Below are positions 9,951-22,828 of a stretch of 23,334 nt of DNA, piece after piece. Origin of the DNA: a virus. The DNA lies in the IMG/VR virus record IMGVR_UViG_3300028361_000128, positions 1 to 23,334 of that record. One strand, given 5' to 3'. The position numbers and the translations under genes were made by a program. The notes under the pieces were generated by a model. It had not been told where the DNA came from, did not search any database, and worked only from the letters and a program-made list of their open reading frames with translations. Position 1 is the first letter of the stretch; each line of letters opens with the position of its first letter.

Positions 9951-11576
9951 ATGGCATTCCCAGGCGACTACACTAAGTATCAAGAGGTAACGATTGATGC
10001 AACCAAAGTCAGTGCCGACCTTACTGACTACGTTGTATACGTCAACCTAGCCGACCTCGTGAAAGCGGGAGCGGACATTTTTGATACGTGTCGATCGGAC
10101 GGGGGAGATATTCGAGTCACGAAAACAGACGGGATCACTCAGCTTGCAGTCGAATTAGTAGCCATCGACACAACAGCAAAGACGGGAGAGCTTCACTTCA
10201 AATTCACTGGGACACTATCAAGTTCGACTGACACAGTTATTCGGATTTGGTACAACGGAGCTGATACAGTACCAGCAGTATCTTCAACTTATGGACGAAA
10301 CAATGTTTGGACTGACTTCCAAGCAGTTTTTCACTTCAATCAAGATCCTAGTGCTGGCTCACTAACAGACAGTACAGGGAATGGTTATAACGGAACAGCA
10401 GCAGGATCGATGACCTCTGGTGATTTAGTTGCTGGTAAATTCGGAAAAGCATGGGACTTTGACGGAGCAAATGACAGGGTAACTCTACCCACACCAACAG
10501 CTTTTCAAACAGCTATACAATCCGTAAGTGCATACGTGCAAAGTAGTGCCCCAAATACTTTGACTAGTCTGTTTTCAGTAGGTGATCTCTCAAGTCCTTA
10601 CAACAAATTTGCTCATGGTACAGGTGGGGGAATGTACAAAAGAACAAGTAATACCACCGGACCTCACCTAACACCAACAGTTGCATTCTCAAATGACACG
10701 TGGACTCACTACGCAGGAAATATTGAGACTAATGATTACAGAGTATACAAAGACGGTGTGGCAAATGGTGTAGATACGACAGATGGAAGAAATCCACTTG
10801 GTATGACTGGAGTTGATACAGCAGAAATTGCATCTCTTTCTTACAACGGAACAGCAACATCATATCCAGCTATCATTGATGAGTTGAGAATTCGAACTTC
10901 ATCAATATCAGGAAACTATGTATCTACTGAATACAACAACCAGAACACACCATCGACATTCTATGCTTCAGGAGATGAAGAGGGTGGTGTAATAACTCAA
11001 GCACTCACAGCAACCGCTCAAGCAGGAGCTTCATACGCAAAACAAATAGGAAAAGAAGTAGCAGTGACAGCACAGATGACTGCATCATTCTTACGATCAA
11101 TAAATAAAAGAATAACTGCAACAGCACAAGCAAGTACAGCAATCCTAAAAACACTAGGGAAGTCATTAGCAGTGACAGCACGAGCCACTGTTACTATAAT
11201 GACAACACAAGTGACTCTTAAAATCCTTACCGCAACGGCACAAGCGAACACATCACTTACAAAGATTTCAATCAACACAGTAGAACTGATAGTAACTGCA
11301 GCAGGAGCAGTAACAGTAACTACTCAAAAAGCGTTCAATAGACTGCTAACAGCAACTGCACAAGGAACAGCATCACTGGTGCAGTCAGGGCTCATTATCT
11401 CAAGAGAGCTACTAGTGGTAGCACGAGCCACAGTGACAATTCCACAAGCACTAACACTGAGTAAAATCCTTACCGCAACTGCGTCGGCAGTGGTATCATT
11501 AGCAAGAGACTTCGGTTTCCTCGACAAGTATCCAGAGAACGAGGCGACGTACGAAGATAAATATCCAGAACAATAA
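9951..11576 (+). CDS. DUF2341 + LamG-like fibre/adhesion protein with ATAQ repeats
   Basis: 541 residues. Residues about 10-97 match a DUF2341 pattern (YVVYVNLADL; GGDIRVTKTDG; IRIWYNG). Residues about 115-335 are a LamG/concanavalin-type jelly roll (AVFHFNQDPSAGSLTDSTGNGYNGT; FGKAWDFDGANDRVTLP; DELRIRTSSISGNYVSTEY), a fold that often binds glycans. Residues about 348-517 are around nine degenerate 18-22-residue units built on (L/A)(T/V)(A/V)TAQAxxSLxK. The C-terminus holds two DKYPE copies (DKYPENEATYEDKYPE). There is no signal peptide, which fits a virion component. It probably binds the host surface; glycan specificity is unknown. The frame is intact, and TAA is followed 1 nt later by the next ATG. 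Confidence 0.78.
   Translation: MAFPGDYTKYQEVTIDATKVSADLTDYVVYVNLADLVKAGADIFDTCRSDGGDIRVTKTDGITQLAVELVAIDTTAKTGELHFKFTGTLSSSTDTVIRIWYNGADTVPAVSSTYGRNNVWTDFQAVFHFNQDPSAGSLTDSTGNGYNGTAAGSMTSGDLVAGKFGKAWDFDGANDRVTLPTPTAFQTAIQSVSAYVQSSAPNTLTSLFSVGDLSSPYNKFAHGTGGGMYKRTSNTTGPHLTPTVAFSNDTWTHYAGNIETNDYRVYKDGVANGVDTTDGRNPLGMTGVDTAEIASLSYNGTATSYPAIIDELRIRTSSISGNYVSTEYNNQNTPSTFYASGDEEGGVITQALTATAQAGASYAKQIGKEVAVTAQMTASFLRSINKRITATAQASTAILKTLGKSLAVTARATVTIMTTQVTLKILTATAQANTSLTKISINTVELIVTAAGAVTVTTQKAFNRLLTATAQGTASLVQSGLIISRELLVVARATVTIPQALTLSKILTATASAVVSLARDFGFLDKYPENEATYEDKYPEQ
10985..11510 (+). repeat. Degenerate ~60-nt coding repeats (ATAQ-type units)
   Basis: The DNA encodes about nine successive units beginning CTN/GCN-ACA-GCN-ACN-GCN-CAA, translated as TATAQA, VTAQMT, TATAQA, VTARAT, TATAQA and variants. 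Units alternate between TATAQA-type and VTARAT/VTAQMT/VVARAT-type, which suggests a two-unit super-repeat of about 40 residues. At the DNA level the copies have diverged, so the array is old rather than freshly duplicated. Each unit probably forms a beta strand in a fibrous or stacked fold. Confidence 0.6.
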
Positions 11577-21976: not shown

Positions 21977-22004
21977 TGGACAGTAGACAAAAAAGTGATA
22001 AGAT
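21977..22004 (+). promoter_or_regulatory. Candidate promoter for the early genes
   Basis: TGGACA (21977-21982) and TAAGAT (21999-22004) are 16 nt apart, with one and two mismatches to the sigma70 consensus. Initiation would fall near 22011, giving a leader of about 36 nt to ATG 22047. The 11-bp direct repeat AGTAGACAAAA (21948-21958 and 21982-21992) brackets the region, its second copy lying in the spacer. Confidence 0.35.
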
Positions 22005-22046: not shown

Positions 22047-22661
22047 ATGAAAAACAAAAAGTACAGCGAAAGAGACGGCTACGGAATCTACACCACAGAC
22101 TTCCAAGCCACAGACGGACGACTGCAAAAAACAGGTAACTGGATTGCAGAGAACAGCATGGAGATACTGATACTCGCACTATTCGCAGGAATGGTAGCAG
22201 GCACAGGAATGCTCCTACACACAACAACGGTAGCCGCTGACACACTGATCGAGTACGTAGAACTAGAAGAAGATAACTACCAAGAAGAAAAAGTACTCGA
22301 AGCCATCACAGCACAAAGGATGGAGAAGCTCGCAGAAGAAAGTGTGGAACAGCCACCATACTGGACAGTAGAAAGCTATTGAAAGGTACAGGCGGAAGTG
22401 TCAGCGTACACATCCGATTCAGCCGAGACGGACGACACACCGTTCATCACAGCGTCAGGAGCTCGCACACGACACGGCATCATCGCCTGCCCACGCAAGT
22501 ATGACTTCGGAACAGAGGTAGAGATACACGGCGAACGATACATATGCGAGGACAGAATGAATAAACGATACGACGGCGAACACTTCGACATATGGATGCA
22601 CACAAAAGCAGAGGCATACAAATGGGGCAGAAGATTAGTAGAGGTAAAAATAATCAAATGA
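22047..22661 (+). pseudogene. Membrane-anchored 3D-domain protein interrupted by in-frame TGA
   Basis: One frame from ATG 22047 to TGA 22659-22661 is broken only by TGA at 22380-22382. The first part (111 residues) has a polar N-terminus, one membrane segment (about 38-57, MEILILALFAGMVAGTGMLL) and an acidic stalk. The second part reads KVQAEVSAYTSDSAETDDTPFITASG, GIIACPRKYDFGTEVEIHG, ICEDRMN, FDIWM and WGRRLVEVKII, the complete pattern of a 3D (double-psi beta-barrel) domain found in wall-active proteins. KVQAEVSAY supplies the first strand, so the domain begins before the GTG at 22398. The gene may be read through, inactive, or carry a base error; two separate proteins are the other option. 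Confidence 0.6.
22398..22661 (+). CDS. Alternative call: separate 3D-domain protein from GTG
   Basis: If the TGA at 22380 really stops translation, the downstream part could restart at GTG 22398 (MSAYTSDSAE), giving 87 residues. This version has most of the 3D barrel (TASG, GIIACPRKYDFGTEV, EDRMN, FDIWM, GRRLVEV) but lacks a signal, an anchor and half of the first strand. There is no Shine-Dalgarno sequence before the GTG. GTG starts are otherwise not needed anywhere in the window. Its stop overlaps the next ATG (ATGA). I consider this less likely than one interrupted gene. Confidence 0.35.
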   Translation: MSAYTSDSAETDDTPFITASGARTRHGIIACPRKYDFGTEVEIHGERYICEDRMNKRYDGEHFDIWMHTKAEAYKWGRRLVEVKIIK

Positions 22662-22828
22662 AAAAAGAACTCACAACAGAAGAACAGCTCATTGAACGAC
22701 GGGAGGGAACTAAAAAACGTATCGAGAAAAAACTATCGGTTCTAAAAGAAAGCTACGAAACTAAAAAAGCAATCCAAGAGAAGCGACTAGAAGAGGTGAA
22801 CATTGAATTAAAAGCACTCAAAAAATAA
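22658..22828 (+). CDS. Small coiled-coil protein before SSB
   Basis: 56 residues from ATG 22658, chosen because it overlaps the preceding TGA as ATGA; a longer frame from 22592 would lie inside the 3D-domain gene. Almost every residue is Glu, Lys, Leu, Arg or Ile (MKKELTTEEQLIERREGTKK; VNIELKALKK), giving one continuous helix that probably dimerises. No family recognised. The SSB gene begins 2 nt after its stop, so the two are co-translated. Confidence 0.6.
   Translation: MKKELTTEEQLIERREGTKKRIEKKLSVLKESYETKKAIQEKRLEEVNIELKALKK

Follow-up and report, generated by a model that had tools for sequence, protein, structure and literature searches.

A single gene interrupted by a leaky stop codon is the best explanation for two adjacent open reading frames near the end of the window (the whole 23,334-nt stretch analyzed, IMG/VR virus record IMGVR_UViG_3300028361_000128). 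Low-level UGA readthrough, to which we assign a probability of about 0.6, would yield plenty of the protein that consists of the anchor alone and small amounts of tethered enzyme. An earlier note, made from the sequence alone, had described a membrane anchor/stalk and the 3D double-psi barrel of a wall protein sharing one frame with TGA 22380-22382 as their sole separator, and translation confirmed this: positions 22047 to 22661 comprise 111 residues, the TGA, 92 residues, and a final TGA at 22659-22661 (Table 1). The first open reading frame (ORF 1) was modeled by AlphaFold2 with one long helix (residues 37 to 98). UGA readthrough, one of several options in that note, became the leading one on account of the conserved stop, the shared frame, selection downstream, and fused relatives.

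Table 1. Coordinates of the split gene and associated features in the window
Feature	Position	Strand	Remarks
Promoter candidate, sigma-70-like, ahead of the gene	21977..22004	+	TGGACA, 16 nt, TAAGAT
ORF 1: cytosolic N-terminus, membrane helix, coiled stalk	22047..22382	+	111 aa, ended by TGA
First beta-strand of barrel (residues 111-121 of read-through product), with TGA inside	22377..22409	+	AlphaFold2 model
In-frame TGA, proposed readthrough site	22380..22382	+	TAT-TGA-A also in relative
3D/MltA-like double-psi barrel, predicted lytic transglycosylase	22383..22661	+	92 aa after TGA
GTG, rival start	22398..22400	+	Sole standard start codon between TGA and barrel core
Asp181 of read-through product, presumed catalytic	22587..22589	+	Putative counterpart of YuiC D162

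Conservation of the stop and selection downstream

The closest relative, IMGVR_UViG_3300028376_000015 (same genus), shares the gene order and has TAT-TGA-A at the same codon, with an A directly after the UGA in both genomes. Barrel proteins of the two are 80% identical, and the 92 codons after the TGA differ without frameshifts at a dS of 0.85 and a dN of 0.12 (ratio 0.14; Fisher test on changed and unchanged sites, P ~ 2e-10), a pattern indicating that this part is under purifying selection. The ORF 1 proteins are 71% identical, with residues 4 to 37 unchanged, and the stalk before the stop has a dN/dS of ~0.68 and several indels. On this comparison, the stop was retained over a period in which the downstream part stayed functional. 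Since the same stop occurs in a divergent relative with the downstream part in working order, occasional readthrough is probable.

The stop was carried by these two genomes only, both of one genus. Searches for further genus members, using the anchor, barrel, holin, amidase, and terminase as well as the large protein beside the lysis cassette, recovered none reaching the split gene: just two additional records came up, which cover the terminase or lysis region and stop short of this gene. Scanning DNA for a TGA spaced identically upstream of TDDTPF returned the known relative and unrelated sequence only. With two genomes, and hence little power, a hairpin after the stop folded no better than shuffled sequences, and excess nucleotide conservation after the stop was not significant (P = 0.14 and 0.63). 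The five codons between the TGA and the downstream GTG have 11 of 15 bases identical, mildly above the neutral expectation.

Architecture in other relatives

The alignment to homologous loci proposed in the earlier note favored one protein over two independent ones. We compared more than 30 phage and Patescibacteria sequences (from IMG/VR and Patescibacteria genomes) with readable upstream sequence, after setting aside loci cut at a contig end or beyond judging. In nearly all relatives other than the one sharing the TGA, the barrel is joined to an upstream protein in one unbroken frame. Most of these fusions have a membrane or signal segment, and one (L034) has no obvious membrane segment. At another phage locus (L038, around 4001), the frame between anchor and barrel is broken by two stops, perhaps by a frameshift or an error, making it a possible exception to the fused architecture.

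Barrel fold and predicted activity

The same note held that the residues right after the TGA begin the barrel, so that the domain would start before the GTG. The AlphaFold2 model read through the stop agrees, with strand 1 at residues 111 to 121 and the TGA at residue 112, the second residue of the strand; block 111 to 120 has a mean pLDDT of 91 to 98, and most structural matches in the PDB begin at model residues 102 to 114. The barrel came closest to YuiC (Z = 11.0 over 89 residues) and MltA (Z = 8.5 to 9.5). The "3D domain" label given earlier thus holds by fold (YuiC/MltA-like) but not by Pfam, where PF06725 scored 19.3 bits, below the curated cutoff of 23.8. A sequence search of the PDB gave chance-like matches only.

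We predict from the model that the barrel is a peptidoglycan-cleaving lytic transglycosylase. D181 is invariant in 29 homologues, as is D169, and the first of the three 3D/MltA aspartates seems, judged by motif only, to be replaced. In YuiC, threonine T91 orients the catalytic aspartate D162 (PMC4499186). Going by alignment end points, their counterparts should lie near residues 119 to 120 and at D181; with the T91 counterpart in that position, strand 1 probably contributes to the active site. The phage barrel resembles YuiC/Sps and MltA (PMC4499186) in its double-psi fold, its presumed catalytic Asp, and its extracytoplasmic placement in relatives but differs from them in a sequence too diverged for the Pfam cutoff and in the stop codon within its first strand.

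How readthrough would operate

The majority of ribosomes would terminate at the UGA, the product being a short membrane protein with a cytosolic N-terminus, one membrane helix, and an external stalk. A minority would insert an amino acid, probably Trp via near-cognate tRNA-Trp, to give a longer protein in which the YuiC/MltA-like peptidoglycan-cleaving barrel is held outside the membrane. The stop would then act as a fixed-ratio limiter that keeps a potentially damaging wall enzyme at small amounts. The earlier note had envisaged a regulated switch between anchor-only and full-length forms; we saw no sign of regulation, and a fixed-ratio leak is simpler. We infer that readthrough occurs, at what rate and with which amino acid inserted, and likewise the activity of the enzyme and the timing and purpose of the arrangement. 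The stronger statement, that programmed UGA readthrough in a Patescibacteria DNA phage fixes the ratio of anchor to anchored enzyme, with the stop inside strand 1 barring active enzyme otherwise, stands in our judgment at about even odds.

A possible separate start at the GTG

Two separate proteins, with the barrel initiated at GTG 22398 either independently or by termination-reinitiation, form the main rival reading, though a clearly less likely one than readthrough. Starting 15 nt after the TGA, translation would produce an 87-aa cytosolic barrel that might be let out later through the holin, and a holin and an amidase are indeed encoded nearby. The GTG is conserved in both genomes and is preceded at 5 nt by AGG in the window and by AGAGG in the relative, a possible ribosome-binding site; short intergenic gaps are also common in this phage. 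The same codon encodes a conserved hydrophobic V of strand 1 in the homologue alignment. A protein begun there would, by the model, lose residues 111 to 117, most of strand 1, including the conserved VxAE that lies ahead of the GTG and matches homologues such as L033 (VRAEVSAY). Truncations of this kind tend to have little effect on AlphaFold2 models. Of the two conceivable barrel products, only the read-through one has a membrane segment; a GTG start would drop the membrane or signal segment that most relatives possess, leaving the enzyme without export.

Nearly every gene in the window starts with ATG, behind A-rich sequence that mostly lacks a Shine-Dalgarno motif. By a lenient test, a Shine-Dalgarno motif preceded 8 of 55 gene starts in these phages versus 70 of 347 (20%) of all ATGs in the window, an approximate count in that 2 of the 27 window coordinates used (3284 and 9485) were off the ATG. 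Since the other starts examined were ATGs mostly lacking such sites, initiation at a GTG would be atypical here.

Genetic code, tRNAs, and host

A host that decodes UGA (as Gly under code 25 or Trp under code 4) would make the gene continuous in that host. This is improbable. Some Patescibacteria, the probable hosts of the phage, do use code 25, and phages of such hosts with genes compatible with code 11 have been reported (PMC10746230). In the relative IMGVR_UViG_3300028376_000015, TGA ends 10 of the 29 genes counted, often via an ATGA overlap with the next gene. In 16 other TGA-ended frames of that genome, a set that includes a few unverified ORFs, the run-on to TAA or TAG spans 0 to 39 codons, versus 92 codons with a recognizable fold after TGA 22380; the latter exceeds chance. 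Apart from this codon, TGA serves both phages as a regular stop, and the hallmark of a reassigned UGA under code 4 or 25 (TGA avoided as a stop, with many in-frame TGAs) was absent. Neither the window nor its relatives yielded a tRNA, the window and some of the records being fragments, so a suppressor tRNA in the phage, also among the earlier suggestions, is unlikely. With TGA an ordinary stop and no tRNA found, genome-wide UGA recoding or a UGA-reassigned host is unlikely. Selenocysteine at the UGA was considered and rejected: no Cys occurs at this position in aligned homologues.

The assignment to Patescibacteria as probable hosts follows from terminase relatives, present in 5 of 380 Patescibacteria genomes, and from the nearest cellular barrels, which are mostly from this group. 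The anchor had no match in the 380 genomes, nor did the barrel in the five with a terminase relative. Two phage relatives encode a tmRNA with the tag AKASIPSPYAHELGLKNTVLA* (L050:11116-11507 and L055:119-509), scoring 56.9 and 51.6 bits, respectively, against an Rfam gathering score of 47; BLAST matched these to Patescibacteria genomes in the 3' end only, and the window begins downstream of the matching place. Phage tmRNAs are already known elsewhere.

Decay following an ancestral nonsense mutation, with the anchor alone still in use, would fit the Pfam score under the family cutoff but is very improbable and largely refuted by the dN/dS of 0.14 over 92 frameshift-free codons past the stop. 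A TGA conserved at a dS of ~0.85 with selection acting downstream is neither the mark of a decaying gene, which also disposes of the recent nonsense mutation raised earlier, nor a base-call error. A base-call or assembly error at 22380-22382 is refuted, since an independent contig differing at about half of the barrel's synonymous sites has the same TGA.

Known parallels

Some RNA viruses are documented to append an entire domain by programmed readthrough. From a limited literature search, we know of no case in which a DNA phage makes a wall-cleaving enzyme in this way and lacks a suppressor tRNA. The closest parallel is the Q-beta A1 protein, made by UGA readthrough about 1 time in 15 (PMC8067240), where a single leaky UGA in a phage likewise gives mainly a short protein plus a rarer, extended one that bears a separately folded domain. 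Q-beta is an RNA phage with a structural protein and proven products, whereas the split gene belongs to a DNA phage and combines a membrane anchor and a wall enzyme by predicted readthrough. UGA is described as leaky in bacteria, with 6% readthrough in one Bacillus subtilis reporter (PMC7918605). Bacterial in-frame stops under purifying selection (PMC7918605) also resemble the present one in having a conserved stop and a dN/dS well below 1, but that work was a genome survey, and here a single phage gene has its stop at a domain boundary.

Phages with recoded stops may use suppressor tRNAs to restrain their late genes (PMC10746230; PMC11210395). As represented in PMC11210395, such phages (crAss-like and others; Borges et al. 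2022) share with the split gene an in-gene stop and a proposed limit on late or lytic functions. In that account, recoding affects many genes, often with suppressor tRNAs; the split gene is one gene in genomes where no tRNA was found and TGA is a normal stop. By analogy, the split gene would work like Q-beta A1 and differ from the recoded phages. If this holds, readthrough would offer a simple way to dose a dangerous enzyme. Gene callers, which would split the locus into one ORF begun at the ATG and another begun at the GTG, can misplace the start as well as the location of such proteins.

Gene neighborhood

The split gene lies downstream of a late operon with a holin and an amidase and of a region with a promoter-like site and upstream of a gene for a single-strand-binding protein. 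From these flanks, it seems to be the first gene of an early operon, separate from the holin-amidase lysis cassette, the timing being our reading of the layout. In the promoter candidate, a TG precedes the second hexamer, and both hexamers are identical in IMGVR_UViG_3300028376_000015; it is a consensus match only, at about chance level for the region. A small charged ORF (22658-22828) that separates the barrel from the single-strand-binding protein gene in the window is missing from the relative, where the barrel is terminated by TAA versus TGA in the window. Elsewhere in the window, the protein encoded at 9951-11576 has 48% identity to its counterpart in the relative, while its structural neighbors have 94 to 98%; it looks like the product of a host-recognition or diversifying gene.
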